Assembly: GCF_002684405.1 (NCBI RefSeq) | Contig: NZ_NYVD01000034.1 | Location: 1 to 48,962 of the forward strand | Direction of reading: 5' to 3' | DNA: 48,962 nucleotides | Source: Parvibaculum sp. | GTDB lineage: Bacteria > Pseudomonadota > Alphaproteobacteria > Parvibaculales > Parvibaculaceae | In this document: in pieces, positions 1 to 48,962 of the stretch | Layout: every line of letters starts with the position of its first letter | Numbering within the stretch: the first letter of the stretch is position 1 | Translations under genes and position numbers: made by a program | Notes under the pieces: model-generated | Seen by the model: only the letters and a program-made list of their open reading frames with translations | Databases searched by the model: none | What the model was told of the DNA's origin: nothing

Positions 1-2847
1 CCCCGCCGCTTCCACCACCGCATCGCGCACATTCCGGTCCTGCTCACGCAGCTGGTTGGAGAACTCCACGATCAGAATGCCATGCTTGGTAATGAGGCCG
101 ATCAGCGTGATAAGGCCCACCTGACTGTAGATATTGAGCGTGAGATTCGTCCCCGTCACAATATTGGCGACGAACATGAGAAGCAGCGCACCGGCCAGCG
201 ACAACGGCACCGAGACGAGAATGATCGTCGGCTCGATGAAACTTTCAAACTGGGCGGCCAGCACGAGATAAATGAACATCAGCGCCAGCACGAAGGTAAC
301 GGCCAGCGTGCCGGAGGACTTCGTGAACTCGCGCAACGGACCGTTGAGATCGGTTTGCGCGTTCTTGGGCAGGACTTCCGCCGCCGTCTTCTCCAGGAAG
401 TTCAGCGCCTCGCCCATGGAATAACCCGGTGCGAGATTGGATGAAATCGTCGCCGCGCGAAGCTGGTTGAAGCGATTGAGCGAAGCGGGCGCCACCGTCT
501 CCTTCACATCGATCAGGTTGGACAACTGCACCATCTCGTTGTCCTTGCCGCGCACATAGATGTCGGAAATATCCTGCGGCGTGCGCCGGTCCTCGTCGGC
601 CACCTGCACGATGACGTCGAACTGTTTGCCGTTGCGCTCAAAGCGCGTGACCTTGCGCCCGCCCAGAAGCGTTTCCAGCGTGCGCCCGACGGTCGACACG
701 TCGATGCCCGCATCCACCACCTTTTCGCGGTTCACCTTGATGTCGAGCTGCGGCTTGTCGAGTTTCAGATCCGTATCGGCATTGATGAAGCCGGGATTGG
801 CGCGCAGCTTTTCCATGAACTTGTTCATGTCATTGGCCAGATCGTCATAGGTGCCGGAGGTCTGCAGCACGAACTGGATGGGCTGCGACCGCCCGCTCTG
901 GCCGAGCGACGGCGGATTGATACCGAAGGCGAGAATGCCCGGTATTTCCATCAGCTTGGGCTGGATGGAATTGACGATCTCCTGCTGCGAGCGGTCGCGC
1001 TCGCTCCAGTGGCTTAGGCGCGAGAAGGAAATGAGATTGGTGATTTCGGGAAAGCCTGCCACCACCAGATACCCCTTCACTTCGGGCACCTGGGAAACGA
1101 TATTCTCGATCTGCTTGGTATAATGCAGCGTGTAGTCGAGCGTCGCGCCCTCAGGCGCGCGACCGGCAATGAGCAGGATGCCGCGATCTTCCGTCGGCGC
1201 GAGTTCCTGATTGAGCAGCTTGAAAAGCCCCACACAGGAAAGACCCACGAGAACGGCGGCAACGACGATAAGCGTCTTGCGGCCCAGCGCTTTTTCGAGC
1301 GCGTTCTTATAGGCGCTGTCGAGACGGTCGAGCCAGCCGCCCAGCAGCTTGTCGAACCGTCCGCCGCCCGTATCGCGCCGCAAGAGCTTCGAACACATCA
1401 TCGGCGTCAGCGTCAGCGCCATCGCACCCGACACGACGACGGCGCCAGCCAGCGTCAGCGCAAATTCGAGGAACAGACGCCCTGTCCGCCCTTCGGCAAA
1501 GGCCACCGGCGCGTAAACGGCGGCGAGCGTCAGCGTCATGGCAATGATCGCAAAGGCGATTTCGCGCGAGCCCTTGATCGCCGCCTGAACCGGCGACAAC
1601 CCTTCCTCGATATGCCGGAAAATATTTTCCAGCACCACGATCGCGTCATCCACCACAAGGCCGATGGCAAGCACCATGGCAAGCAGCGTCAGCGTGTTGA
1701 TACTGAATCCGAAGAGCAGCATCATGCCGAACGTACCGATCAGCGAAATCGGGATCGTCACAACCGGGATGAACGAGGCGCGTACCGTCCGCAGGAAGAC
1801 GAAAATCACCAGCACGACGAGGATCACCGCCTCGATAATCGTCTCATAGACCGACTTGATCGATTCTTCGATGAAGATGGACGTGTCATAGCCGATGGAA
1901 TAGGCCATCCCCACCGGCAGCGTCGGCTCCATCTGCTTCAGCTTGGCACGGACCGCGGCCGCCACTTCCAGCGGGTTGGCCGTTGCCTGCTTCACGATGC
2001 CCACGGAAATCGAGGTCTTGCCGTTATAGGTCGCCGCGCGGCGCTCGTCGGCCGGCGCAATCTCGACCTTTGCCACCTGGCCGAGCGTCACCTGGAAACC
2101 GCCGCTGTCCTTCACCACGATCTTCGAGAATTCGTCCGGCGTTTCGAGCGCGGTCTTGGACAGGACCGTGAATTCCCGCTTGGTGCTTTCGATACGGCCG
2201 GAGGGAATTTCCGCATTCTGGTTGCGGATCGCGTTCTCGACATCCTGCACCGTCAGCCCGTAGGCGGCGAGGCGCTGCCGGTCCACCCAGACGCGCATCG
2301 AGTAGAGCCGCTCGCCGAAGATCGACACCTGCGCAACGCCCGGCTGGTTCTGCAGCTGGTTCTTCACGATACGGTCGAGATAGTCGGTAATATCCATGCC
2401 CGACATGCGCGACGAGGCGAAGGCGATATACATGATCGGGCTCGCATCGGCCTCGACCTTGGCGATGATCGGCTCGTCCACATCGTCGGGAAGCTGTCCG
2501 CGCGCGCGCCCGACGCGGTCGCGCACATCGCTTGCCGCAACATCCGGATCCGTCGACAGCGTGAAGCGCGCCGTCACCTGGCTGCTTTCGGGCCGGCTGG
2601 ACGACGTCAGGATTTCGATCCCCTCGATCCCCGCCATCGCCTCTTCGAGCGGCTGCGTCACCTCGCGTTCGATCACCGAGGCGCTGGCGCCGCGATAGGA
2701 AGTCGTCACGGTCACCACCGGCTCGTCGATTGCCGGATATTCGCGCACCGTCAGCCGCTCATAGGAGACGAAACCGACGAGAATGAGGATGAGCGCAACA
2801 ACCGTCGCGAAGACAGGTCGGCGGATAAAGAGTTCGGAAATATGCAT
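1..2847 (-). CDS. RND multidrug efflux permease (AcrB/HAE1 family), 3' end outside window
   Basis: Inner-membrane proton-driven pump of a tripartite drug efflux complex. Reading back from 2847 the protein begins MHISELFIRRPVFATVVALI, the usual first helix of HAE1 permeases. The TM4 motif GLVVDDAIVVLENIF carries the adjacent aspartates of the proton relay, and near the window edge ITKHGILIVEFSNQL carries the TM10 lysine, so the proton-relay residues are present. About 949 residues are visible against roughly 1,030 in the family, so some 80 C-terminal residues are missing. The start is ATG at 2847 behind AGGAGC, only 9 nt after the adaptor's stop, so the two are one operon. The drug spectrum cannot be read from sequence. 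No outer-membrane factor or dedicated regulator is in the window. Confidence 0.95.
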   Translation of the reverse strand, partial: MHISELFIRRPVFATVVALILILVGFVSYERLTVREYPAIDEPVVTVTTSYRGASASVIEREVTQPLEEAMAGIEGIEILTSSSRPESSQVTARFTLSTDPDVAASDVRDRVGRARGQLPDDVDEPIIAKVEADASPIMYIAFASSRMSGMDITDYLDRIVKNQLQNQPGVAQVSIFGERLYSMRVWVDRQRLAAYGLTVQDVENAIRNQNAEIPSGRIESTKREFTVLSKTALETPDEFSKIVVKDSGGFQVTLGQVAKVEIAPADERRAATYNGKTSISVGIVKQATANPLEVAAAVRAKLKQMEPTLPVGMAYSIGYDTSIFIEESIKSVYETIIEAVILVVLVIFVFLRTVRASFIPVVTIPISLIGTFGMMLLFGFSINTLTLLAMVLAIGLVVDDAIVVLENIFRHIEEGLSPVQAAIKGSREIAFAIIAMTLTLAAVYAPVAFAEGRTGRLFLEFALTLAGAVVVSGAMALTLTPMMCSKLLRRDTGGGRFDKLLGGWLDRLDSAYKNALEKALGRKTLIVVAAVLVGLSCVGLFKLLNQELAPTEDRGILLIAGRAPEGATLDYTLHYTKQIENIVSQVPEVKGYLVVAGFPEITNLISFSRLSHWSERDRSQQEIVNSIQPKLMEIPGILAFGINPPSLGQSGRSQPIQFVLQTSGTYDDLANDMNKFMEKLRANPGFINADTDLKLDKPQLDIKVNREKVVDAGIDVSTVGRTLETLLGGRKVTRFERNGKQFDVIVQVADEDRRTPQDISDIYVRGKDNEMVQLSNLIDVKETVAPASLNRFNQLRAATISSNLAPGYSMGEALNFLEKTAAEVLPKNAQTDLNGPLREFTKSSGTLAVTFVLALMFIYLVLAAQFESFIEPTIILVSVPLSLAGALLLMFVANIVTGTNLTLNIYSQVGLITLIGLITKHGILIVEFSNQLREQDRNVRDAVVEAAG

Positions 2848-2856
2848 ATGCGGCTC

Positions 2857-4017
2857 CTACTGCGCGGCCCCGTCTGTGGGGGCCTCGCTTTCGGAGGCTT
2901 TCTTTTTGAGTTCGATGGGCTGAACCGGCGCCCCGTCGCGAACCTTCATCTGACCCGCCGTAATCACCCGTTCGCCTTCCTTGACGCCGGAGCGGATTTC
3001 CACCTTGCCGGGCTGACGCACGCCGAGTTCCACGGGACGCATATGGGCTTTACCGTCTTCACTCACCACGAAGACCGCCTTGGAGCCCGTCGCATCCGAG
3101 CCCGCCGTGGAGATGATGGCCTGCTCCGGCACGACGATGGAGTCGCGCGTCTGCGTCACGATCTTCACGCGGCCGAACAGGCCCGGCCGCAAACGCCCTT
3201 CGTTGTTCGCAAGCAACGCGCGTACCTTGATCGCGCGCCCCTCGACATCGATCACCGGATCGATGGCGCTCACAGTGCCGCGAAAGGTCTCGCCGGGCAG
3301 CGCATCGAATGTGATGTCGACGGTCTGCCCTTTCTCGACCTCGGTGAGATAGATTTCGGAGACACGGAAATCGATTCTGAGATTGTCCACATCGGCGAGC
3401 GTCGCAATCGGCTGGCCGGGCGTCACATACTGACCGAGACTCACCTGCCTCAGCCCCACAATGCCCGAGAAGGCAGCCCGGATCGTGCCCTTGTCGAGCG
3501 CGGCCTGTGCCAGCGCGCGCTGCGCTTCGGCGGATTTCAGCGCATTGAGCGCCTCGTCCCGCGACCGCTTCGTCCCCGACCCGCGGCTCACCAGTTTGCG
3601 GGCGCGCTCGAAATTCGCCTGGGACAGCGTGAGCTGCGCTTCGGCCTGCTGCAGGCGCGCTTTCAGGTCTTCATCGTTCAGCGTGACGATGAGATCGCCC
3701 TGTTCGAGGCGTTGCCCGTCCTCGAAATCGATGCTGGTCACAATCCCGGAGATTTCCGGCGTCACGACGATGGACTGGTCGGCTTCGAGCGTACCGATAG
3801 CCGAAACTTCAGCCTGCACCGGCTCTATACCGGCGATCACCGTTTCGACGGCCGGCGGCGGGGAAGACCATCCCTGGCCCTGACCGCCCATGCGCTGAAA
3901 GGCCATCCATGCAAACCCCACAAGCAGAATGGCGGCAATCGCAATAGCGATCAGCGCCGGACGGCCAAGCAGGCCCGCCGCCGCTTTTTTGCGCGGTGTC
4001 TCGCTGGAGGAAGTCAT
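2857..4017 (-). CDS. RND efflux periplasmic adaptor (membrane fusion protein)
   Basis: Periplasmic adaptor that links the downstream permease to an outer-membrane channel. I start it at ATG 4017 (MTSSSETPRKK, 386 aa) because AGAGG lies 7 nt upstream; a longer reading to 4116 adds a basic stretch with no ribosome site. Residues ~17-37 form one membrane anchor. A lipoyl half-domain follows (EPVQAEVSAIGTLEAD), then an alpha-helical hairpin (~residues 110-150), the second lipoyl half (IRAAFSGIVGLRQVSLGQYV), a beta-barrel, and the membrane-proximal part (GVKEGERVITAGQMKVRDG). The C-terminal tail is charged and low complexity. Its ribosome site is inside an 8-bp inverted repeat (4021-4044), which could tune translation or bind a regulator. 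Confidence 0.95.
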   Translation of the reverse strand: MTSSSETPRKKAAAGLLGRPALIAIAIAAILLVGFAWMAFQRMGGQGQGWSSPPPAVETVIAGIEPVQAEVSAIGTLEADQSIVVTPEISGIVTSIDFEDGQRLEQGDLIVTLNDEDLKARLQQAEAQLTLSQANFERARKLVSRGSGTKRSRDEALNALKSAEAQRALAQAALDKGTIRAAFSGIVGLRQVSLGQYVTPGQPIATLADVDNLRIDFRVSEIYLTEVEKGQTVDITFDALPGETFRGTVSAIDPVIDVEGRAIKVRALLANNEGRLRPGLFGRVKIVTQTRDSIVVPEQAIISTAGSDATGSKAVFVVSEDGKAHMRPVELGVRQPGKVEIRSGVKEGERVITAGQMKVRDGAPVQPIELKKKASESEAPTDGAAQ

Positions 4018-4020
4018 ATT

Positions 4021-4044
4021 CCGACCTCTGTTTTTGGAGGTCGG
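4021..4044 (-). promoter_or_regulatory. Inverted repeat enclosing the adaptor ribosome-binding site
   Basis: CCGACCTC (4021-4028) and GAGGTCGG (4037-4044) are perfect 8-bp complements separated by 8 nt. In the mRNA of the efflux adaptor the 3' arm contains the AGAGG Shine-Dalgarno, ending three bases before ATG 4017. As RNA it would hide the ribosome site; as DNA it is a plausible repressor operator. Which one applies is inference. Confidence 0.5.
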
Positions 4045-4188
4045 TGTCCCGCCTCCCATTCGTTTTAGCTTACGGATGGGCGCGCAGTCCGAGCCCTCTC
4101 CCCTCCGCTTTGACATAGGTCATTTTAGCCGAAAGGAAAATGGCAATTTGCCGCTTTATACGACGATGCCCCTACGCAAAGAGGGGGT

Positions 4189-13723: not shown

Positions 13724-14650
13724 ATGCGTTCCCTGTATCGAGTCGTCAAAAACCTCCTCCCCCTGAACATCAATCTTTCCCGCGCGGGCGCGCTCACCGC
13801 CTTTATGGCGATGGCATTGCCGCTCGCCGGCTGCACCGGCAGTTCGGATTATCCCGTCATCTTTCCGCACGGACCTGACGCGATCACCGAGCGCGATCTG
13901 CTCTTCATCGCGGTCGCCATCATGCTGATCGTTGTCATTCCGGTTTTCGTGCTGGCGGTGTGGCTTCCTCTGCGCTACCGCGCATCGCGTGAAGCACCCG
14001 ACTACGATCCGAACTGGGACCATTCGCATCGCGCAGAAGTCGTGATCTGGCTTGTTCCGGCGCTTATCGTGTGTGCGATCGGCTCTCTGGTCTGGATCTA
14101 CACGCACAGGCTCGACCCCTATCGCTCGCAAATGGCGGAAGGAAAGCCGGTCGTCGTCCAGGCCGTGTCCATCGACTGGAAATGGCTCTTCATCTATCCG
14201 CAACAGCACCTTGCGACGGTGAATGAACTCGTTTTGCCGACCGATCGCCCGGTCAGCCTGAGGCTCACATCGACGGATGTGATGACGTCCTTCTTCGTAC
14301 CGGGCCTTACAAGCCAGATCTATGCGATGGCAGGCATGGGCACGAGATTGAATTTCCAGCCGGGACCTGTCGAGACCTATACCGGCCGCAATTCGCTATT
14401 CGACGGCAAGGGTTTCCCGGACCAGAAATTCCCTGTCCGTATCGTGACGGCCGAAAACTTCAAGAACTGGATCGACACGGTCCGCAAGGCGCCGCTGCAG
14501 CTCACGCCGCATAAATATCAAATGCTGAGCAAGTCCGGGGCGATGCCGCATCCGCTGCACTTTTCCAGTGCCGACCCCGAACTCTTCGCCCGCATCGTCA
14601 AGGGCGAACACTCGGCGGCAAGCATGATCGTCTCCAGCCGATCCAAGTAA
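13724..14650 (+). CDS. cyoA: Cytochrome o ubiquinol oxidase subunit II
   Basis: Subunit II of the heme-copper quinol oxidase, 308 aa. It is a lipoprotein: the signal sequence ends LPLAGC (lipobox) near residue 36. Two membrane helices follow (LLFIAVAIMLIVVIPVFVLA and EVVIWLVPALIVCAIGSLVW), then the cupredoxin domain with SIDWKWLFIYP and MTSFFVPGLTSQIYAMAGM. The cysteine and histidine ligands of CuA are absent (YTGRNSLFDGKGF replaces them), which marks a quinol rather than cytochrome c oxidase. The C-terminal COX_ARM region (DRV-like KNWIDTVRKAPLQL) is present. ATG 13724 has GGAAG 8 nt upstream, inside a small hairpin. Confidence 0.96.
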   Translation: MRSLYRVVKNLLPLNINLSRAGALTAFMAMALPLAGCTGSSDYPVIFPHGPDAITERDLLFIAVAIMLIVVIPVFVLAVWLPLRYRASREAPDYDPNWDHSHRAEVVIWLVPALIVCAIGSLVWIYTHRLDPYRSQMAEGKPVVVQAVSIDWKWLFIYPQQHLATVNELVLPTDRPVSLRLTSTDVMTSFFVPGLTSQIYAMAGMGTRLNFQPGPVETYTGRNSLFDGKGFPDQKFPVRIVTAENFKNWIDTVRKAPLQLTPHKYQMLSKSGAMPHPLHFSSADPELFARIVKGEHSAASMIVSSRSK

Positions 14651-14673
14651 CTCCAGGAAAGAACCGATTTCCC

Positions 14674-16710
14674 ATGCTCGGAAAACTCACCCTTCACGTC
14701 CTTCCACTCTACAGCCCGATCGCCATGAGCGGCGCGGCAATGGAGCTGCTTGGCGTTTTGTTTATTGCCGCGCTCATCACATGGTTCGGCAAATGGCGCT
14801 ATATCTGGAACGAATGGCTAACGACGGTCGACCACAAGCGCATCGGAATCATGTATGTGGTTCTCGCCTTCGTCATGCTGTTCCGCGGTTTCTCAGACGC
14901 CTTCATGATGCGCATGCAGCAGGCCACCGCCTTGAACGGCCATGGCTATCTGCCGCCGGAACATTTCAACCAGGTGTTCTCGGCTCACGGCACGATCATG
15001 ATCATCTTCATGGCGATGCCGTTTTTAACCGGCATCATCAATTTTGTCGTGCCGCAGCAGATCGGCGCACGGGACGTCTCTTTCCCGTTCCTGAATTCCG
15101 TGAGCTTCTGGCTTACAGCCGCCGGCGCGGCGCTCGTTCTCACCTCGCTGGTCATAGGCCGCTTCACCACGGCAGGCTGGACGGCCTACCCACCCTTCTC
15201 TGAACTGCCCACAAGCCCCGGTTCCGGAACCGACTACTGGATATGGGCCGTTCTCGTGAGCGGCGTCGGCTCGACACTTACCGGCGTGAACTTCGTCGTC
15301 ACGATCATCAAGCGGCGCGCGCCCGGCATGTCGCTGATGCAGATGCCGCTCTTCACCTGGGCGGCTTTTATCACCGCCATCCTCATGGTCTTCGCGTTTC
15401 CCGGCGTCACGGTCGCGGCCGCCCTGCTCGGCTTCGACAGGTTCCTCGGCATGCATTTCTTCACCGCGGACGCCGGCGGCAATGCGATGAACTACATCAA
15501 CCTCTTCTGGTTGTGGGGCCACCCGGAGGTCTACATCGTAATCCTTCCCTCCTTCGGCATCTTTTCCGAACTGGTGGCGACCTTCTCCAGCAAGAGGCTT
15601 TTCGGCTACGTCTCGCTTGTCTACGCGACGATGGTGATCGGCATTCTGTCCTTCACCGTCTGGCTGCACCACTTCTTCACCATGGGCTCAAGCGCTGACG
15701 TGAACAGCTTTTTTGGCATCGCCACCATGGTGATCGCCGTCCCGACGGGCGTAAAAATCTACGACTGGCTCCTGACCATGTATCGCGGGCGCATCCGCCT
15801 GACCTCCCATATGCACTGGACGCTGGGGTTCATGGTCGCCTTCGTCATCGGCGGCATGACTGGCGTACTCCTCGCCATTCCGCCAGTCGACTATGTGATG
15901 CACAACACGCTGTTCCTTGTTGCGCATTTCCACAACATGCTGATCCCCGGCTCGCTGTTCGGGCTTCTGGCGGGTTACCAGTACTGGTTCCCCAAGGCGT
16001 TCGGCTTCCGGCTCGACGAGTGGTGGGGCAAGACGTCTTTCTGGTTCTGGTTCGTGGGCTTCTACGTCGCCTTCATGCCGCTCTATGTGCTTGGCTTCAT
16101 GGGCATGCCCCGGCGTATGGACTACTATCAGAACCCCGCCTGGCAGCCCTGGCTCATCGTCGCCGCGATCGGCGCGGTGCTGATTGCCATCGGCATTCTG
16201 TGTCTGGCAATCCAGCTCGTCGTCAGCATCCGCCGTCGCGAAGAACTGGCCGACCTGACCGGCGACCCGTGGGACGCGCGCACGCTGGAATGGATGAATG
16301 CCTCGCCGGCGCCGCTCTACAACTTCGCCGTCGTGCCTGAAATCCACGACCGAGAGGAACTCGCCTGGCGCAAGGAACGCGGGATTTCGCACGACGCTCC
16401 GGCGCATTACACGCCGATTGAAATGCCGTGCAACACCTCCACCGGTGTTCTGATCGGCGGGGCGGCCTTCGTGCTCGGCTTTGCCGTGATCTGGAACATC
16501 TGGTGGCTCGCCATTCTCGCCTTTGCGGGCGTCATCGCCGCCACCATCGTCAAGGGGAGCGTACCGGAGGAGGAATACACGATCACTCCGGACCAGATCG
16601 CCGCCCTTGAAAGCCGCGGCAGCGGCCCCCTGCTGGGCTTTCTGAGCCCCCTGGAAGATGAGCGCGGCGATCATTCGACGCATGGCCTGCTGAATTCCAT
16701 CGGAGACTGA
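14674..16710 (+). CDS. cyoB: Cytochrome o ubiquinol oxidase subunit I
   Basis: Catalytic subunit with heme b, heme o3 and CuB, 678 aa, about 15 membrane helices. Visible landmarks: VDHKRIGIMYVVLAFVMLFRG, the heme ligand region VFSAHGTIMIIFMAMPF, the CuB/tyrosine loop LFWLWGHPEVYIVILPSFG, VWLHHFFTMG (paired histidines) and VAHFHNMLIPGS (heme ligands). The K-pathway and D-pathway regions look intact. It starts 23 nt after cyoA and ends 2 nt before cyoC. It carries the proton-pumping oxygen reduction step at the cytoplasmic membrane. Confidence 0.97.
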   Translation: MLGKLTLHVLPLYSPIAMSGAAMELLGVLFIAALITWFGKWRYIWNEWLTTVDHKRIGIMYVVLAFVMLFRGFSDAFMMRMQQATALNGHGYLPPEHFNQVFSAHGTIMIIFMAMPFLTGIINFVVPQQIGARDVSFPFLNSVSFWLTAAGAALVLTSLVIGRFTTAGWTAYPPFSELPTSPGSGTDYWIWAVLVSGVGSTLTGVNFVVTIIKRRAPGMSLMQMPLFTWAAFITAILMVFAFPGVTVAAALLGFDRFLGMHFFTADAGGNAMNYINLFWLWGHPEVYIVILPSFGIFSELVATFSSKRLFGYVSLVYATMVIGILSFTVWLHHFFTMGSSADVNSFFGIATMVIAVPTGVKIYDWLLTMYRGRIRLTSHMHWTLGFMVAFVIGGMTGVLLAIPPVDYVMHNTLFLVAHFHNMLIPGSLFGLLAGYQYWFPKAFGFRLDEWWGKTSFWFWFVGFYVAFMPLYVLGFMGMPRRMDYYQNPAWQPWLIVAAIGAVLIAIGILCLAIQLVVSIRRREELADLTGDPWDARTLEWMNASPAPLYNFAVVPEIHDREELAWRKERGISHDAPAHYTPIEMPCNTSTGVLIGGAAFVLGFAVIWNIWWLAILAFAGVIAATIVKGSVPEEEYTITPDQIAALESRGSGPLLGFLSPLEDERGDHSTHGLLNSIGD

Positions 16711-16712
16711 AA

Positions 16713-17306
16713 ATGCACACCGAAACGGCCCACAGTCACGAAGCCATGCTCTTCGAGGAGCGCGAATTCGGCTTCTGGATCTATCTGATGAGCGACGCGA
16801 TCATCTTCTCGCTGCTCTTCGCCACCTATGCCGTGATGCGGCACGCAACCGCCGGCGGCCCCGGCGCCGCCGACATCATGGAATTGCCGACAGCAGCGAT
16901 CGAAACCGCTCTGCTGCTCCTGGCGAGCGTCACCTTCGGCATGGCCGCGGTGGCGCTGGAAGACAAGCGCCGGAATGCGATCCTCGTCTGGCTCGGCATC
17001 TCCTTCCTGCTCGGCGCGGGTTTCCTCGGCATGGAAATCCACGAATTCATCGGACTGATCGCCGAAGGCGCCTCGCCGCAGCGTTCCGGCTACCTGTCCT
17101 CGTTCTTCGTGCTCGTCGGCACGCATGGCGCTCACGTGACGGCGGGCCTTGTCTGGATTGCCACAGCCGTCGCCCAGCTCATGCGGACAGGGCCGACAGA
17201 AGCCTTCGCGGCGCGCTTCAAGCGCCTCGGCCTCTTCTGGCACTTTCTGGACATCGTCTGGATCGGCATCTTTTCCATCGTCTACCTTCCCGGAGTCCTG
17301 CAATGA
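16713..17306 (+). CDS. cyoC: Cytochrome o ubiquinol oxidase subunit III
   Basis: Five-helix subunit III, 197 aa. It begins with a short histidine-rich tail (HTETAHSHEAMLFEE) and then FGFWIYLMSDAIIFSLLFATYAVM, the conserved start of CyoC. SSFFVLVGTHGAHVTAGLVW carries the conserved histidines of helix III-IV, and the end FWHFLDIVWIGIFSIVYL is typical. It begins 2 nt after the cyoB stop and overlaps cyoD by 4 nt (ATGA), which is consistent with translational coupling. Confidence 0.96.
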   Translation: MHTETAHSHEAMLFEEREFGFWIYLMSDAIIFSLLFATYAVMRHATAGGPGAADIMELPTAAIETALLLLASVTFGMAAVALEDKRRNAILVWLGISFLLGAGFLGMEIHEFIGLIAEGASPQRSGYLSSFFVLVGTHGAHVTAGLVWIATAVAQLMRTGPTEAFAARFKRLGLFWHFLDIVWIGIFSIVYLPGVLQ

Positions 17307-36741: not shown

Positions 36742-39420
36742 TCAGAGATCGAGCTGCATTTCGAACACGCTCGGTTCGCCCGGCAGCTGATGGCGCGTAA
36801 AGCCGAGTTCGGTACACAGATCGAGCATCGGCTTGTTCTCGCGCAACACATGGCCGAAGATCTGCTTCACACCGCGAGCCCGCGCATAGTCGATGAGCTT
36901 GTGCATCAGCCCGTAGCCGAGACCATGTCCGTGAAGATCGGTCCGCACCAGGATCGCATATTCCGTCCGCTCCCTGTCGGGATCGTCGGAAAGCCGGCCT
37001 ACCGCGGCAAGATGCTGGCGCGTCTCGTCGGTAAAGACCACAAAGGCCATTTCCCGGTCATAGTCGATCTGCGTCAGACGCGCGGCCAACTGGCGCGGAA
37101 GCTTTCTGAGTGGCGACAGGAAACGCAGCCGTATGTCTTCCGGATCGGTATGCGCCAGAAGGTCGTCCGTCAGCGGCGCGTCTTCGGGCCGGATAGGCCG
37201 CATCGGATAAATCCTGCCGTCTCGCCCGGAAATCGCCCCTTCCAGCGCACCGGGATAGGGCCTTATCGCAAACCGCGACGAGCCCTTGCCATGCGGCGCC
37301 TTGATGCGCACACGCGCATCCAGCGCCAGCACGCCTTCCTCATCCGCCCAGAGAGGGTTGATGTCGAGTTCCGCGATGTCGGGATTATCCGCCGAGAGAT
37401 CTCCGATCGCCATCAGAGTGCCCGCAATCGCATCGAAATCGGCACCGGGACGTCCGCGATAGCCATCGAGAAGCCTTGAGACCCGCGTGCGCCGGATCAG
37501 ATCTTCTGCCAGCACCCGATTGAGAGGCGGCAACGCCATCGCCTGGTCTCGCACGACTTCCACCGCCGTACCGCCCTGCCCGAAAAGAAGCACCGGGCCA
37601 AAGGTCGCGGCGTCGATCATGCCGAGGATGAGCTCGAAGGCACTGGGACGGCTCGCCATGCGCTGAACGGTAAACCCGTCGATCTTCGCATCTGGCCTGG
37701 CTTCCGCCACGCGGTCGAGCATGCGCCGCGCCGCCCGCAGCACCGCTTCCTTGTCTTCGAGATCGAGCGCGACGCCGCCGACATCGGTCTTGTGGGTAAT
37801 TTCGGGGGAAAGAATTTTCAGCGCCACCGGATAGCCGATTTCCTCCGCGCACGCCGCCGCTTCATCGACGGAACTCACCGTGAGCGTTTCCACGACCGGA
37901 ATGCCATAGGCCTTCAGAAGCGCCTTTGCTTCCGGTTCCGTCAGCCATTCGCGCTTCTCGCCGGCGGCCTTGTCGATAATGGCACGCGCCGCATCGAGAT
38001 CGCGCTGCGGCCATGCAGGCCCCGCCGGCGGAATTTCCATCAGCAGCCGCTGGTTACGGTCATAGCGAACCTGCAGCATGAAGGAATGAACCGCCTGACC
38101 GGGCGTGTCATAGGTCGCGACCTTGTTGTTGAGAAAAACCTGTCGCGCCTCCCGCGCGCCCTGATCGCCAAGCCAGCTCGTATAAAGCGGCTTGCGGCTC
38201 TTCGCAGCGGCATCGACAACCGCCCGCGCGGCTTCGACATTGTCCACCACGGCGGTCGGACAGTTGAGCACCAGAAGCGCATCGGTATTCGGGTCTCCCA
38301 TCAGGCCTTCGATCGCATCCGCATAACGCTGCGCACCGGCATCGCCGATAATGTCCACCGGATTGCCCCGGCTCCAGGTGGGCGGCAACACCTTGTTGAG
38401 GCTCTCGATCGTCTCCGGCGCCAGCGAAGCGAGATGCCCGCTCTCGTCGATCAGATCATCGGTCGCCAGCACCCCGACACCGCCGCCATTGGTAAGGATG
38501 GCAAGCCTGTCGCCGAGGAGCGGCTTGCGCTCCGAACGCATGGCAAGGGTCTCCACCGCATCGAAGAGGTCTTCCACGCCCTGCACGCGCAACATGCCCG
38601 CGCGGCGGAAAGCGGCGTGATAGACCGCGTCGGACCCGGCCAGCGCACCGGTATGCGACCGCGCCGCCTTGGCGCCTTCTTCATGGCGGCCCGCCTTGAT
38701 GACCATGACCGGCTTCAGGCGCGCGGCCTGCCGGCCTGCGGACATGAACTTGCGCGCATCGGTCACCGACTCGACATAAAGCAGAATGCTTTTCGTCTTC
38801 GGGTCATGCGCGAGAAAATCCAGCATGTCGCCGAAATCCACATCCGACATGCCGCCCAGCGAAACGATATGGGAAAATCCGATATTGCGGCTCGTCGCCC
38901 AGTCGAGGACGGCGGTGACGACGGCACCCGATTGCGAGACGAAGGCAACATTGCCATCGAGCGGCGGCAGATGGGTGAAGGAGGCGTTGAGCTGGTTTCC
39001 CGGTGCCAGGATGCCAAGACAGTTCGGCCCGACGATACGCAGAAGATAGGGCTTAGCCGCATCCAGCATCTCGCGCTGTAGCGCCCGTCCTTCTTCGCCG
39101 AGTTCGCCAAAGCCCGCCGTGATGACCACGGCGGCGCGCGTTCCCTTCTTTCCGAGTTCGCCGATAATGCCCGGCACGGTGTGAGGCGGCGTCGCGATCA
39201 CGGCGAGGTCGGGCGCCTCCGGCAGCGAGGCAACATCCCTATAGGCCTCCTCCCCGCCGATCTCACCGCCCTGCGGATTGACCGCCCATATGGGCCCTTT
39301 GAAATCGGCGCTTCTCAGGTTCCGCAGCACGACCTTGCCGATACTGCCGTCGCGATTGCTCGCTCCGATCAGCGCGACGGATTTCGGCGCGAACATTTGA
39401 TGGAGGTTTCGGATGCTCAT
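36742..39420 (-). CDS. Acyl-CoA synthetase (ADP-forming)-GNAT fusion, Pat/PatZ-type protein acetyltransferase
   Basis: An 892-aa fusion. Residues ~1-460 are the CoA-binding and CoA-ligase domains (SVALIGASNRDGSIGKVVLR, VGPNCLGILAPGNQLNA, AFVSQSGAVVTAVLDWA), ~480-720 an ATP-grasp domain (VALKILSPEITHKTDVGGVA), and ~735-892 a GNAT domain with acetyl-CoA loop RTDLHGHGLGYGLMHKL. Enteric Pat/PatZ has the same order and acetylates acetyl-CoA synthetase and other proteins; in it the ligase half is inactive because the phospho-histidine is lost. Here SHTGALAGSD keeps that histidine (H256), so the ligase half may still work. ATG 39420 has GAGG five bases upstream. Confidence 0.9.
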   Translation of the reverse strand: MSIRNLHQMFAPKSVALIGASNRDGSIGKVVLRNLRSADFKGPIWAVNPQGGEIGGEEAYRDVASLPEAPDLAVIATPPHTVPGIIGELGKKGTRAAVVITAGFGELGEEGRALQREMLDAAKPYLLRIVGPNCLGILAPGNQLNASFTHLPPLDGNVAFVSQSGAVVTAVLDWATSRNIGFSHIVSLGGMSDVDFGDMLDFLAHDPKTKSILLYVESVTDARKFMSAGRQAARLKPVMVIKAGRHEEGAKAARSHTGALAGSDAVYHAAFRRAGMLRVQGVEDLFDAVETLAMRSERKPLLGDRLAILTNGGGVGVLATDDLIDESGHLASLAPETIESLNKVLPPTWSRGNPVDIIGDAGAQRYADAIEGLMGDPNTDALLVLNCPTAVVDNVEAARAVVDAAAKSRKPLYTSWLGDQGAREARQVFLNNKVATYDTPGQAVHSFMLQVRYDRNQRLLMEIPPAGPAWPQRDLDAARAIIDKAAGEKREWLTEPEAKALLKAYGIPVVETLTVSSVDEAAACAEEIGYPVALKILSPEITHKTDVGGVALDLEDKEAVLRAARRMLDRVAEARPDAKIDGFTVQRMASRPSAFELILGMIDAATFGPVLLFGQGGTAVEVVRDQAMALPPLNRVLAEDLIRRTRVSRLLDGYRGRPGADFDAIAGTLMAIGDLSADNPDIAELDINPLWADEEGVLALDARVRIKAPHGKGSSRFAIRPYPGALEGAISGRDGRIYPMRPIRPEDAPLTDDLLAHTDPEDIRLRFLSPLRKLPRQLAARLTQIDYDREMAFVVFTDETRQHLAAVGRLSDDPDRERTEYAILVRTDLHGHGLGYGLMHKLIDYARARGVKQIFGHVLRENKPMLDLCTELGFTRHQLPGEPSVFEMQLDL

Positions 39421-39596
39421 GGGAACCTCGACGAATATGGGGGGCAGAATTCAAGCCGGGAAGAGATGCTCGAACGCAAGGGGAATGGAAACACAGAACG
39501 GCGTATATCGCGAGCGGACAAGTGGCCGCGCCACGCCCAATCTGTGGAAAACCGCATGGGTTTGATCTAACGCAAAGAAGAGAGGCTATGGAAAGC

Positions 39597-40085
39597 TCAG
39601 CCGTCGGTCGCACCGCTGCCGACCGGATAGCCCGTCATCAGGGAGAGGTCGCGCAGGATATCGCGTCCTTTCCCCCCGCCATCGCCCGACATATCGTCCG
39701 AAGCGGCAAGCAAGAGCGCGTCCAGATGCGCGCGAACGATTTTCAGATCGTCATCGGAATAGGCGGATGTAGCCCGCAGGAAGCGGCATAGCGACGCTCC
39801 GAGCGCCGTCACAAAATCATAGCCGAAGGACCCGCCCTGCCCCTTCACATTGTGGGCAATGGCGTAGATCTCATCCATGACCTGCCGGCGGTCCGCCCCG
39901 TCTTCCAGCTTTGCCCAGAGCAGGAACATCTGATCGACATCCTTGCGGAACTGGTCCTTGTAACTGTCGCGCAATGCTTCCACGGCAGCCTCCGCTTTCG
40001 CGATCAGGCGCGCATATTCGCTCGAATCGTTTTCGTCGAATGAGGCCATGGTTCCGTTTTCGAGCATCTGAGTGAAAAGAGGCAT
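39597..40085 (-). CDS. Hpt-domain phosphotransfer protein
   Basis: Small all-helical histidine phosphotransfer protein, 162 aa as read. The signature AHNVKGQGGSFGYDFVTALG carries the phospho-accepting histidine (about residue 78). Helices around it (ARLIAKAEAAVEALRDSYKD, QMFLLWAKLEDG, LCRFLRATSAYSDDDLKIVR) fit a four-helix Hpt bundle, and the tail is flexible. The start is uncertain: ATG 40085, 40067 or 40049 (MASFDENDSS) are possible and none has a good ribosome site. There is no kinase or receiver gene next to it; CpdR at 17849 is in the window but is normally served by ChpT. The partner is unknown. Confidence 0.82.
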   Translation of the reverse strand: MPLFTQMLENGTMASFDENDSSEYARLIAKAEAAVEALRDSYKDQFRKDVDQMFLLWAKLEDGADRRQVMDEIYAIAHNVKGQGGSFGYDFVTALGASLCRFLRATSAYSDDDLKIVRAHLDALLLAASDDMSGDGGGKGRDILRDLSLMTGYPVGSGATDG

Positions 40086-40158
40086 GCAATACGGAGATCC
40101 AAGACGATATGCGGGTCAGCATTAAGAAAGCCTAAAAACGCATGTGTCGGATTGACAA

Positions 40159-41229
40159 TCATCCCGCCGTCGCGCGCGCATAAGCAAGGAATTCCGCGAC
40201 AGCGGCGGCTTCCGTCTGGAATGACGCGACAAGTCTTACCGTCCGCGCCCGGTCATTGTCCCCCACCATCGGCCAGGGATGGAAGCGCGCGCCCGCCTCT
40301 TTGAGGCCTTTCGACATGGAAACCGGCATGCGGACGAAAATCTCGTTCGCCTCTACGGGGAAATGAATGCCAACGCCGGGTATTGCACCGAGCCCTTCGG
40401 CAAGCTCGCCCGCCATCGCATTGGCATGAGCGGCCAGGCGCAGCCACAATCCGTCTTTCAGATAGGCTTCGAGCTGGGCCGAAAGAAAACGCATCTTCGA
40501 AAAGAGATGCCCGCCGCGCTTTCGCCGGAACGCAAAATCGCGTGCCAGATGCTTGTCGAAAAAGATCACGGCCTCGGCCCCCATGGCGCCGTTCTTGGTC
40601 GCGCCGAACGACATCACATCGATCCCGGATTTCCATGTGATCTCCGCCGGCGACGCATCGAGCGCCGCAACCGCATTGGCAAAGCGCGCGCCGTCCATGT
40701 GAACCGCGATATCGCGCGAATGCGCAATATCCGTAAGCGCCCGGATTTCATCGACGGAATAGAGCGTCCCGCATTCGGTGGATTGCGTCAGCGTCAGCGT
40801 CGAAGGCTGTACATTGTGGACATTGCCAAGCGGCAGAAGACGAAATGCGGCCTTGAAGGCATCCGGTTCGAGCTTTCCGTTCTCGCCTGCAATCGGCACG
40901 AACTTGGCACCGTCGGAAAAGAATTCAGGCGCACCGCATTCGTCGACATGGGCATGCGCGTGTTCGTGACCGAAAACCGCGCCCCATGGCGGCGTGAGGC
41001 AGGCCAGCGCCAGAGAATTCGCCGCCGTGCCGGTCGCGACGGGAAAAACCTCGACCTCATGTTCGAACAGATCCGCCATGACGATCTGAAGCCGCGCGGT
41101 CACATCGTCGGCGCCATAGGAAGCGGCACTGCCATGATTGGCTTCCGTCAGCGCCGCCATGATTTCGGGCGCCACGCCCGACGCATTGTCACTGGTAAAA
41201 TCCATCGCCGCCATTTCCGATCCCGCCAT
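40159..41229 (-). CDS. ltaE: Low-specificity L-threonine aldolase
   Basis: PLP fold-type I enzyme, 356 aa, that splits threonine or allo-threonine to glycine and acetaldehyde. MDFTSDNASGVAPEIMAAL is the classical start motif, ATGTAANSLALACLTPPWG the cofactor phosphate region, HEHAHAHVDECGAPEFF the stacking histidine region, VHMDGARFANAVAAL the aspartate, and DVMSFGATKNGAMGAEAVIF the PLP lysine. I chose ATG 41229 because AGGTGAAG precedes it; GTG 41238 and the ATG of MDFTSD are alternatives. It lies 33 nt after the bufferin-operon DoxX gene on the same strand, so read-through from that operon is plausible. Confidence 0.93.
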   Translation of the reverse strand: MAGSEMAAMDFTSDNASGVAPEIMAALTEANHGSAASYGADDVTARLQIVMADLFEHEVEVFPVATGTAANSLALACLTPPWGAVFGHEHAHAHVDECGAPEFFSDGAKFVPIAGENGKLEPDAFKAAFRLLPLGNVHNVQPSTLTLTQSTECGTLYSVDEIRALTDIAHSRDIAVHMDGARFANAVAALDASPAEITWKSGIDVMSFGATKNGAMGAEAVIFFDKHLARDFAFRRKRGGHLFSKMRFLSAQLEAYLKDGLWLRLAAHANAMAGELAEGLGAIPGVGIHFPVEANEIFVRMPVSMSKGLKEAGARFHPWPMVGDNDRARTVRLVASFQTEAAAVAEFLAYARATAG

Positions 41230-41262
41230 CTTCTTCACCTGAACGGGCGGATCGTAACGGGC

Positions 41263-41739
41263 TCACCGGCGAAAGAGAAGGTGATCGAGCGAAAACCTGC
41301 CGCCCCCCAGCGCCGCCAGGGCAACGAGCATGACCGCCCAGGAAAGATGCACCGTATAGGCTTCCGGGTAGACGAAGATCTGGATGACGAGCGTCATGCC
41401 GAGAAGAGGTAGTGCGGCAAAGCGCGTGGCGAGCCCGAGCAGAATGAGAAGCGAAAAGAAATGTTCCGAATAGGTCGCCATATAGGCTGCGAGATGCGGC
41501 GGCAGAAGCGGCAGCGCATATTCATATTGAAAGAGGAAGAAAGTGCTCTCCTTGATCGTGAGTAGTCCCTCCACCTTGGTGCGGGCGGACTGGAAAAAGA
41601 CCAGAAAGATCGCCACCCTCATCATCAGCGTGTAGAGCGAAACGGGGATGCTAGCCAAAAGCGCATTCGCCCGCCCGGCAAACGCAGCCGCTCGTGGTAT
41701 CGCGGCGCGCGACGCGGCACTCTCAGAGATGTTGGACAT
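41263..41739 (-). CDS. DoxX-family membrane protein of the bufferin operon (BufD-like)
   Basis: Four-helix DoxX/SURF4-like membrane protein, 158 aa from ATG 41739, which overlaps the end of the bufC-like gene by 17 nt. Helices: SLYTLMMRVAIFLVFFQSA, LPPHLAAYMATYSEHFFSLL, LATRFAALPLLGMTLVIQIF and LSWAVMLVALAALGGG. FFQSARTKVEG is the DoxX motif. DoxX proteins are regularly the last member of MNIO/DUF692 precursor operons; the role may be electron transfer or redox support for the maturase, but this is unproven. A longer frame to 41898 lies inside the upstream gene and has no supporting ribosome site. Confidence 0.9.
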   Translation of the reverse strand: MSNISESAASRAAIPRAAAFAGRANALLASIPVSLYTLMMRVAIFLVFFQSARTKVEGLLTIKESTFFLFQYEYALPLLPPHLAAYMATYSEHFFSLLILLGLATRFAALPLLGMTLVIQIFVYPEAYTVHLSWAVMLVALAALGGGRFSLDHLLFRR

Positions 41740-42532
41740 GGCAGGTATCTCCTCGCTCGGATAAGGGCGCAGCGAAGGCGCCCGATGACAGGATGAAACG
41801 AAACGCCGCGACGAGATCGAAATCCGTGTCGACGGCAGCCGCCGCCTCAGCGGCATCGCCCAGCGCCGCGCCCGCGGCGAACTTTTCGCAAAACGCATGC
41901 ATGCCCAAATCGAGCGATGCGATGCGCACCTCTCCCCCGCTCCGGAACACCATCAGAAAATCGGGGCCGGTATCGAGGTCGATGGGCATGACCTCGGCAT
42001 CCTCGCGATTGCTTCGCCAGATCTGAAACACGGGCCAGCTGGAAGAAAGCAACGCCGCCGAAGGATGGAAACGGAGGCAAAGCCCGGACGGATCATCGCC
42101 GGCCTGCAACGCGCCGGGATCGACCGGCGGCGCCTCGCCCGCGTGATAGGCAGCAAGCCAAAGAAGCTCCAGCCGCGCAACATCGCCAAGATAAGGCAGC
42201 CTGGCGGCCGGCTCGAACCGGTCGAGAAATTCCGGAAAACCGTCGCCGAAACCCATCAGCGTGCCGAGCGACGGCATGCTGTCGGCAAGGAAGAGCCGCG
42301 CCGACGCCCGGAAGAAGTCACGCCCAACAAGACGTTCCACGGCAGGGAAAATATCGGCAAGCGCATCGACAAGACTGGCATGCACATTATTTCGGTAAAC
42401 ATCGAAACGGCGCGCGAGCGGTATGCGCTCGGAAGGCGAGAACAGGGAAAGCGCCGAGCCGTCTTCGGGCTTGCGCAGTGATGCGGCAAAGCGCGCCTGA
42501 AAATCTGCCAGTGAGGGGCGCGCGTCAGTCAT
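41723..42532 (-). CDS. bufC: HvfC/BufC family RiPP maturation partner (DUF2063)
   Basis: Partner protein of an MNIO maturase, 269 aa from ATG 42532 (a GTG at 42538 is also possible). The N-terminal DUF2063 domain is clear: SLADFQARFAASLRKP, RRFDVYRNNVHASLVDALAD, FPAVERLVGRDFFRASARLF, PSLGTLMGFGDGFPEFLDRF and YLGDVARLELLWLAAYHAG. The C-terminal half is a beta-rich domain (WPVFQIWRSNREDAEVMPID). In known operons this protein binds the precursor leader and delivers it to the MNIO enzyme. It overlaps bufB by 8 nt at its start and the DoxX gene by 17 nt at its end, so the set is translated together. Confidence 0.92.
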   Translation of the reverse strand: MTDARPSLADFQARFAASLRKPEDGSALSLFSPSERIPLARRFDVYRNNVHASLVDALADIFPAVERLVGRDFFRASARLFLADSMPSLGTLMGFGDGFPEFLDRFEPAARLPYLGDVARLELLWLAAYHAGEAPPVDPGALQAGDDPSGLCLRFHPSAALLSSSWPVFQIWRSNREDAEVMPIDLDTGPDFLMVFRSGGEVRIASLDLGMHAFCEKFAAGAALGDAAEAAAAVDTDFDLVAAFRFILSSGAFAAPLSERGDTCHVQHL

Positions 42533-43460
42533 GCGCACGCCCCATCATGGCGGCTTGTGCCTGAGCCCGAAGCAACAGCTTGTCCGCCTTCGATGCTTCC
42601 TCAAGCAGCACGCTAAGCGGCGGCACGTCACTGTCCCATTCGATCAGTGTAGGGACGGGCCCGACCCGGTCGAGGAAACGGCCGCAGAGCTCGAAGACTT
42701 CCGGCGATACCCGGCTGCCATGATCGTCGATCCGGAGCGCTTCGCCCTCCACCATCTCCACCGCATGGCCCGCCAGGTGAATTTCGCCCACCAGATCGGC
42801 GGTAATGGCGTCGAGCCAGGCGGCGGCGTCCCGGCCGTGGTTCATCGAAGAGACATAGACATTGTTGACGTCGACCAGCAATCCGCATCCCGTGCGCCGC
42901 GCCAGCGCGACGAGAAATTCCGTCTCGCTCATCTCGTCACGCGTGGCGACATAGGTGGACGGGTTTTCGATCAGCATGCGCCGCCCGAGAATGTCCTGGG
43001 TCTCCTCGACATGCTCCGCGACGATGTCGAGCGCTTCCTCTGTCAGTGGCACAGGCAGAAGGTCGTTGAAATGGATGCCATCGTGCCGCGACCAGGCGAG
43101 ATGTTCGGAGACAAGGCCGGTCTCGTACCGGTCCACTAGCGCGCGCAACCGCTTTGCATGCGCCCGGTCGAGCGGCCCGGCCGAGCCGAGCGACAGCCCG
43201 ACCCCGTGCAGCGACAGCGGATAATGTTCTCGAATAGCGGTCAGATAGCGATGCGGCGCCCCGCCCGCGCCCATGAAGTTTTCGGCATGCACCTCGAACC
43301 AGCCGATGGCGGGCCGCGTGTCGAGGATTTCGCGATAGTGATCGGCCTTGAGCCCGACCCCGGCCGCCCGGGGGCAGGCGGCGGGGGTCGGGCGGCCGAG
43401 ACGGGACCGGCCGCTTCCGGCGCTACTTGCCGGTGCATCATGAGATGGGGGGATGGTCAT
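42525..43460 (-). CDS. bufB: MNIO (DUF692) multinuclear non-heme iron oxidase, bufferin maturase
   Basis: TIM-barrel maturase, 311 aa from ATG 43460 (GGAGAT 6 nt upstream). Family motifs: AGVGLKADHYREIL, GWFEVHAENFMGAGG (metal ligands), SLHGVGLSLGSAGPLDRAHA, SEHLAWSRHDGIHFNDLLPV, MLIENPSTYVATRDEMSETE, GLLVDVNNVYVSSMNHG and GEIHLAGHAVEMVEG (last histidine). MNIO enzymes use two or three irons and oxygen to change cysteines in a ribosomal peptide; in Caulobacter bufferin the product is a 5-thiooxazole. It lies 33 nt after the bufA-like precursor and overlaps bufC. The N-terminal ~35 residues are a poorly conserved Pro/Ser/Gly-rich extension. Confidence 0.93.
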   Translation of the reverse strand: MTIPPSHDAPASSAGSGRSRLGRPTPAACPRAAGVGLKADHYREILDTRPAIGWFEVHAENFMGAGGAPHRYLTAIREHYPLSLHGVGLSLGSAGPLDRAHAKRLRALVDRYETGLVSEHLAWSRHDGIHFNDLLPVPLTEEALDIVAEHVEETQDILGRRMLIENPSTYVATRDEMSETEFLVALARRTGCGLLVDVNNVYVSSMNHGRDAAAWLDAITADLVGEIHLAGHAVEMVEGEALRIDDHGSRVSPEVFELCGRFLDRVGPVPTLIEWDSDVPPLSVLLEEASKADKLLLRAQAQAAMMGRAHD

Positions 43461-43493
43461 GATGATCTCCGTCCGGTCCCTTGAAACACACAC

Positions 43494-43811
43494 TTACGAG
43501 GGAAGCTGTGTGTCCTTCGGGTCGAGGCTGCCATTGCCATAGGGCGTTTCGATGCTGGCGCAGGTGCCGGCCGGCACGAGCTTCCAGGCATTGCCCTGAT
43601 AGTCGAGTGTCGACGTGCCCGCGCAGGTCGTGCCCGCTCCGGCCTTGCAGTCGTTATGGCCGGCCATGGCGACGCCGTAGCATTTTTCCATCGCGCCCTT
43701 GCCCATATCGTCGGCATGGGCGGCGGCGGACAGGCTGATGGCGGCGGTGAGCGCACCGGCAATGGCCAGCGAGGAACGGGCGAGCGTGGAACGGGAAAGG
43801 GTCTTCGACAT
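43494..43811 (-). CDS. bufA1: Bufferin-type precursor peptide (DUF2282 family)
   Basis: Secreted 105-aa precursor. The N-terminal leader is a signal peptide ([19 protein letters not shown], cleavage near residue 33), so the modified product is exported. The mature part has [18 protein letters not shown] and then two more cysteines; the four are C44, C55, C63 and C84. That matches class 1 bufferins, where the two central cysteines become thiooxazoles and the outer ones form a disulfide, giving a copper-binding peptide. ATG 43811 has GCGGAG 7 nt upstream. It heads the operon bufA-bufB-bufC-doxX. Copper protection is the known function of the family and is inferred here. Confidence 0.92.
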
Positions 43812-44020
43812 GTTGGATCTCCGCTGATTGGGTCAAATGGATGTTGTCCATCCGTCCCGGCGGCATGCATGTGCTGTCTTGCCGGAACGGGATCGAGCAT
43901 GCCCGCCGGAACGCGGGCCGTGAAATCAACTGCTGTCACGAAGAAGGGCGCGCGCGGACACGCATTTTCACACGGTCGTGATTGCCGGACATGAAGCCCG
44001 GAGCCGCTAAGCGCCTGATT

Positions 44021-44543
44021 CAAAAAGTCATTTTATAGGTCAGTAATCCTGTCATATTTTCTTGCTAAAAAGCCCCCGTTCTGGCAGTATCGCGCTCCCG
44101 GAGAAGCCCCGCTTCCCGGGGTCCTTTCGGATGGCCGGTCAAGCGTAATTTGGGCCGCCGGGAGACTTGTCAGGTGGCCCCGCTCCGGGCAAAAGGAGCA
44201 CCCTGCAGAAAGCTGAGCGGCTACGCGGCACTGCAGCCGGGGCACGCGCCAGGATAACGGGACCTAAGATTTGTCCCCCGGGCTGCTGGCCCGGGTCGTG
44301 GAGCGTGCTAGATGACGGGCTTGCGGGCCCACCGCGCGGGGATCTTGCGATCAGGCGTAATCCGCTGACGTCCCCCGCCCTCGGGGTTCCGGCATGCCGG
44401 AATGCCCGGCCCTCCGGTCAGAACCGGAAGGACGAGGCGAGAGACGAAAGTGGCGTAGGTGACGACCCGGTTCGGGGTCCGGCAACGGAAAGACATTCCG
44501 TCCGGATCGGCACGGCCCGGGCCTAGGTTAGGGATGGAAAGAA
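44021..44543. other. Hairpin-rich gene-free region between bufA and gltB
   Basis: The 732-bp gap 43812-44543 has no credible ORF. From 44021 to ~44070 it is AT-rich and could hold promoters of both divergent genes, but I cannot assign -35/-10 pairs with confidence. From ~44100 on it is packed with strong stems: CCCCG/CGGGG (44107-44121), GGTG..CTCC/GGAG.CACC (44173-44202), GGGAC/GTCCC (44259-44277), CCCGGGC/GCCCGGG (44277-44295), TTCCGGCATGCCGGAA (44387-44402), TCCGGT/ACCGGA (44413-44428) and GGCCCGGGCC (44514-44523). As RNA this is a long structured leader of gltB or a separate ncRNA. It does not match the cobalamin, TPP, FMN, glycine or SAM-II riboswitch cores I know. Confidence 0.55.

Positions 44544-48962
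<4,419 letters not shown>

Follow-up and report, generated by a model that had tools for sequence, protein, structure and literature searches.

What controls a bufferin operon that has no extracytoplasmic function (ECF) sigma factor or anti-sigma gene at its side? The question is raised by a 48,962-nt stretch of Parvibaculum sp. DNA (contig NZ_NYVD01000034.1; hereafter the window, meaning the whole stretch analysed), in which four intact genes, bufA, bufB, bufC and doxX, occupy positions 41263-43811, all on the minus strand. By sequence, they constitute an intact Buf1-type bufferin operon, a known kind of system for a ribosomally synthesized and post-translationally modified peptide (RiPP). 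We hold with good confidence that this is a Buf1-type operon that is probably without the sigma-F/NrsF switch and is likely transcribed from a sigma-70-like promoter with an activator at CGTGAnnnCAGTTGATTTCAC. What is new here is the alternative upstream element; the operon itself is an ordinary bufferin operon.

Neither an ECF sigma gene nor an NrsF/anti-sigma gene adjoins the operon, in agreement with the first-pass annotation; the neighbours are gltB, an aldolase-like gene and an Hpt-type gene. A search of the window's assembly, which is 91.67% complete and in 184 contigs, did not detect NrsF at E ≤ 0.1. For comparison, we took up to 350 nt before bufA, with starts chosen by script, from 97 loci: the window, 79 loci from named genomes and 17 from the genus and family (two regions, those of L018 and L129, were only 65 and 76 nt long). 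L066, one of the 80 named-genome loci, is outside this comparison; its precursor does have the family cysteines. The sigma-F box was defined as GTAACC-N16/17-CG[AT]A with at most one mismatch, in agreement with the promoters printed for Caulobacter sigma-F (PMC3511200) and for Sinorhizobium meliloti RpoE7 (PMC6180224).

A sigma-F box occurs in 63 of the 97 upstream regions, comprising 62 of the 79 named-genome loci and one of the 17 genus and family loci (L137). Fifteen loci form what we call the window group (the window, L134, L130-L132, L135, L136 and L138-L145). Outside it, exact boxes were found in 43 of 82 regions (shuffle mean 0.01) and boxes with up to one mismatch in 63 of 82 (shuffle mean 1.5). 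Within it, no box with up to one mismatch was found in any of the 15 regions, including the 350 nt upstream of the window bufA. Sigma and NrsF genes lie within the same fetched stretch at 45 of the 79 named-genome loci and at two of the 17 genus and family loci (L130 and L132). In the window's family, sigma-F control thus looks, from these sequences, to have been replaced by another promoter. Three findings strengthen the earlier suggestion of control from elsewhere: NrsF was not detected, the sigma-F box is lacking and a different conserved element is present. Across the whole window, 44 sites resemble the sigma-F box at up to two mismatches (shuffles: mean 28, maximum 41), an excess over the shuffled sequences. 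Two such sites with two mismatches lie between bufA and gltB and were taken as chance: one, at 44043, is on the plus strand, the wrong one for bufA, and the other, at 44506 on the minus strand, is about 700 nt from bufA.

Among known systems, a close counterpart is the Buf1 operon CC3254-CC3257 of Caulobacter crescentus/vibrioides, whose four domains match those of the window operon in kind and order (Kohler 2012, PMC3511200). That operon has sigF-nrsF (CC3253-CC3252), whereas the window has no such genes adjoining, no sigma-F box and a different element. In S. meliloti, a DUF2282 match is located on replicon NC_003078, which carries the SMb genes. The S. meliloti operon SMb20530-SMb20527 has DUF692 and DUF2063 genes, like the window, and is under RpoE7 (ECF16) with a printed promoter of GTAAC...CGAA (PMC6180224); the window, in contrast, is without such a promoter. 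Sigma/NrsF genes are reported in Buf1 clusters, and the core is given as the precursor, MNIO, DUF2063 and DoxX genes only, in PMC12452194. Since that literature does not make sigma/NrsF a requirement of Buf1 clusters, the operon belongs to the known kind.

In place of the sigma-F box, the window group shares the following element:

43896..43940, minus strand: promoter-like element, CGTGACAGCAGTTGATTTCAC (43920-43940) and then CANNNT (-10-like, 43896-43901); a conserved pattern

In the window, the first T of TGATTT lies 27 nt ahead of the start of CANNNT. The composite pattern, consisting of [GT]TGATTT[CT][CA], exactly 19 bases and then CANNNT, is present in all 15 window-group loci (shuffle mean 0.0055 of 15), with the T of TGATTT at -98 to -212 from the bufA start codon. 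Outside the element, identity of the upstream DNA to the window is close to random (0.58-0.66, against a baseline of 0.585). The genome of the window holds a single match to the composite pattern, the one at bufA, and none to the reversed control.

Because the pattern was read from the 15 loci, the fair tests are sites that were not used for defining it. Two loci outside the defining set have gltB beside buf. L070 (Rhodobiaceae) has the exact composite element at -125, and L009 has GTGATTTCCAGTTGA at -62, with AATTGT replacing CANNNT (one mismatch); at the sequence level, both support the element. Allowing one mismatch added only L022 among the 80 remaining loci, and two mismatches gave six in all. 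Among five further sites found from the first half alone, the second half is present in four (L217, L224, L225 and L226) and not in L223. Independent tests are few, because L224-L226 represent a single site shared by three relatives and L217 is at a contig end.

Other searches around the element gave little. A sigma-70 consensus promoter scan of 43780-44560 found none, and the same interval holds one terminator-like site, with 0.7 expected. The RNA fold upstream of bufA has no special structure (z = -0.80), and the repeat scan returned nothing judged striking. In the open-access literature, none of the titles listed for the letters of the element concerned bufferins, copper or promoters of bacteria.

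Away from bufA, the element is found ahead of a DUF547 gene in two genomes of the family, G032 and G035 (L224 and L225, site at about 1500). No DUF547 match was found at the G028 site and the window's genome has none, and because of the latter the link between the element and DUF547 is weak. No bacterial paper on DUF547 with copper was found by title in the open-access literature; the titles retrieved were on plants or food crops. A glycosyltransferase gene lies near the DUF547 site of L224 and L225; in L224 it matches TIGR04283 (arsenosugar type) at 131 bits, below the cut-off of 182, and is cut by the locus end.

Several observations weigh against the proposed control. The element was defined after inspecting these same loci, which are related genomes. 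It is missing from three of the 17 genus and family loci: L129 (76 nt only), L133 (divergent bufA) and L137 (with the sigma-F box). The composite pattern is not specific to buf in relatives: it turned up in 21 of 23 genomes searched, with up to 16 matches in G028, and seven of nine genus genomes without DUF2282 have one to three matches (reversed control 0-2). NrsF is present in G009 and G013, 11-14 kb from the buf genes, and both genomes keep the new element. In the window's own genome NrsF may have been missed, because the assembly is incomplete and fragmented. Finally, an ECF sigma encoded beside a periplasmic metal-sensor-like protein could be involved.

Both key positions of a sigma-70 -10 hexamer are present in CANNNT. 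The TGATTT half, together with the CGTGA upstream of it, would be centred near -41, which by general promoter rules is the position of a class II activator. Transcription would accordingly be expected from a sigma-70-like promoter with CANNNT as its -10, and an activator would be bound around CGTGAnnnCAGTTGATTTCAC, centred near -41. We infer the activator and its signal, as we do the peptide chemistry and the role of copper described below.

The main alternative to an activator plus a -10 is an ECF-type -35/-10 pair. The operon would then be driven by an ECF sigma encoded elsewhere, for example on contig C59, with TGATTT...CANNNT as its -35 and -10. The window's genome has eight sigma region-4 family matches, five above the cut-off; of three sigma genes inspected, one is beside a ChrR-like protein, one is beside a Metal_resist protein and one has a SnoaL-like tail. 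The fixed spacing in 15 of 15 loci resembles that of a -35/-10 pair, and an ECF sigma gene of this genome is followed by a 178-aa protein without a Pfam match and then by a PF13801 Metal_resist protein (88.4 bits). However, the promoter of the sigma itself is usually part of an ECF regulon, and the composite pattern is found in this genome only at bufA; moreover, the 97 buf loci fetched (80 + 17) yielded no protein related to that Metal_resist protein. We regard control by an ECF sigma encoded elsewhere as unlikely. In its own right, the C59 region (L084, 351-3098, minus strand) is a candidate metal-sensing system, with the ECF sigma, the 178-aa possible anti-sigma, the Metal_resist protein (CnrX/Spy-like) and an adjacent EF-hand protein.

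The loci belong to a single GTDB family and include several close relatives, so the conserved element might be a non-regulatory remnant of shared ancestry. This seems improbable, since the element is kept although identity in the upstream DNA around it is close to random, and it is also kept at loci with no gltB detected next to buf (e.g., L130, L131, L132, L139 and L142).

The preferred reading, a sigma-70-like promoter with an activator, concerns an operon whose features are as follows:

43494..43811, minus strand: bufA, Buf1 (DUF2282) bufferin precursor, 105 aa, Cys 44/55/63/84 (PF10048, 90.1 bits)
42525..43460, minus strand: bufB, MNIO maturase, 311 aa (PF05114, 352.8 bits; NCBIfam MNIO_BufB, 378.7 bits)
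41723..42532, minus strand: bufC, MNIO partner (PME type 1: DUF2063 and an RRE-like domain), 269 aa (PF09836, 77.6 bits)
41263..41739, minus strand: doxX, DoxX-family membrane protein, 158 aa (PF07681, 55.8 bits)
43713..43811, minus strand: Sec-type signal peptide of BufA, residues 1-33 (hydropathy and AxA motif, by eye)
43819..43822, minus strand: GGAG, likely ribosome-binding site of bufA (from sequence)

The first-pass annotation had described a bufA-bufB-bufC-doxX operon with an MNIO/DUF692 maturase, a DUF2063 partner and DoxX, and had placed the precursor cysteines at 44, 55, 63 and 84. The gene calls, the BufA translation and Pfam scores far above chance bear this out. The search of the precursor against the DUF2282 model, which it had proposed, gave 90.1 bits against a cut-off of 22.4; the cut-offs for the other three proteins are 25 (MbnB_TglH_ChrH), 27.2 (DUF2063) and 23.6 bits (DoxX). 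BufB also exceeds the curated NCBIfam MNIO_BufB cut-off of 310. The genes were said to overlap or to lie within 33 nt of each other, and indeed bufA and bufB are separated by 33 nt and the remaining junctions overlap by 8 and 17 nt. BufC and the DoxX protein are under the NCBIfam HvfC (40.8 vs 142) and HvfX (55.8 vs 80 bits) cut-offs, respectively. BufA scores 21.4 on the BufA2 model (cut-off 60), as expected because it is a Buf1 precursor. By eye, its N-terminus has a basic start, a hydrophobic core at about 13-30 and AHA ahead of D34. Overall, the Buf1 assignment holds on the features that are testable by sequence or predicted fold.

A different MNIO RiPP as the product, either a methanobactin serving copper uptake or an oxazolin type, is very improbable. 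BufB does match the models for MbnB (64.4 bits) and HvfB (246.4 bits) but falls below both cut-offs (325 and 360) while passing MNIO_BufB, and the precursor is a DUF2282 protein. The window set is also related to the captophorins, proposed to include bufferin, oxazolin, fontiphorin, gonophorin and bulbicupramide, which make thiooxazole peptides and, like the window set, have an MNIO and a PME1 partner (PMC13097082). The precursors of oxazolin, fontiphorin and gonophorin have EGKCG repeats, in contrast to the DUF2282 precursor of the window. The gig (gold-induced genes) operons have been called bufferin clusters as well (Antoine 2025, PMC12452194). Examples of gig operons are listed for Cupriavidus and Legionella.

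Buf1 precursors keep four cysteines (Antoine 2025, PMC12452194). All 97 precursors examined, one from the window, 79 from the 80 named-genome loci and 17 from the 17 genus and family loci of 15 genomes, have the pattern C-x10-C-x6/7-C-x17/21-C; they had been pre-selected by a looser three-Cys pattern. Among 89 aligned BufB proteins (the window, 74 named-genome and 14 genus and family loci), H85, H120, E165, N200, H228, D245 and H247 are at frequency 1.00, as are many further polar residues. Based on the relatedness of BufB to MbnB and other DUF692 structures, the invariant residues probably bind metal.

The AlphaFold2 model of BufC, made from a 45-sequence alignment, has a mean predicted local distance difference test score of 90.1. 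Foldseek with this model returned three matches at E ≤ 0.001, namely 8hi7_A and 8hci_A (TglHI) and 3dee (NGO1945), with E values of 2e-5 to 1.5e-4; structural overlap is moderate, with TM-scores of 0.52-0.62 over the query and root-mean-square deviations of 5.2-7.3. We took chain A of 8hi7 and 8hci as TglI by its length, because chain D is the DUF692 protein. Both TglI and NGO1945 are named as MNIO partners by Antoine 2025 (PMC12452194); the predicted fold of BufC matches those of known MNIO partners. Against PDB sequences, BufC had no match at E ≤ 0.01.

From what is known of the family, the iron enzyme BufB with its partner BufC would convert the central Cys55 and Cys63 into thiooxazoles, and the outer Cys44 and Cys84 may pair as a disulphide. 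The BufA peptide would be exported by Sec; modification before export has been proposed (Antoine 2025, PMC12452194). The mature peptide would bind excess copper in the periplasm, and a copper response of the window operon is likewise presumed from the bufferin family.

The divergent neighbour of the operon is gltB, and downstream are Beta_elim_lyase (aldolase-like), Hpt-type and CoA-ligase-type genes (the Hpt-type protein, at 24.3 bits, is just below the cut-off of 24.6). DUF2282 is patchy, with matches in eight of 27 genus genomes (the window's own included) and in eight of 10 other family genomes. gltB is beside buf in five of the 17 genus and family loci (those of G018, G028, G032, G035 and G036), with hpt on the other side in all five; several of the other 12 are on short contigs. 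Among the 80 named-genome loci, three have it near buf: L004 (a duplicate of the L134 DNA), L009 and L070. No buf genes were found at the gltB-hpt region of 12 other genus genomes, four of which (G008, G009, G013 and G025) carry DUF2282 elsewhere.

The closest genome compared, G019, matches window positions 43998-48962 at 97.4% and 37700-41305 at 87.9% identity. The operon is missing from it, because the two matching blocks are only 24 nt apart there (L200, 3607-3632, vs window 41305 and 43998). G019 keeps a reading frame resembling the DoxX C-terminus (GGGLSVARLLFR vs GGGRFSLDHLLFRR). From this remnant, we read G019 as having lost the operon by deletion; recombination at the site would also be allowed, given that the identity jumps from 97.4% to 87.9% across it.

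DUF2282 also occurs on plasmids, with matches in 240 plasmid records, 60 of them from Escherichia. The conjugative IncFIA plasmid NZ_CP116077.1 of E. coli carries a complete DUF2282-DUF692-DUF2063-DoxX set (L274, 6908-9412), preceded on the same strand by a gene annotated as a TetR-family regulator. Elsewhere in the window are genes for a cytochrome bo3-type quinol oxidase at 13724-17306 (COX2, COX1/CyoB-like and COX3; CyoB 1006.6 bits, cut-off 1020.35). At 1-4116, on the minus strand, are genes for a resistance-nodulation-division (RND) efflux permease, which runs off the window, and a general-RND-type periplasmic adaptor; multidrug models score the permease far higher than the CusA/CzcA metal models do (1051.6 vs 380.2 bits, neither above cut-off).

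Tentatively, and with our opinion leaning slightly to the doubtful side, the family may have moved bufferin control from sigma-F/NrsF to a dedicated copper- or stress-sensing activator at CGTGAnnnCAGTTGATTTCAC beside a CANNNT -10. Since two members of the family also have this element ahead of a DUF547 gene, a small new regulon may exist. The concrete 45-bp element offers a bait for finding the regulator, and a lineage in which the operon was kept and the switch swapped would provide a natural comparison for the signal to which the operon responds.

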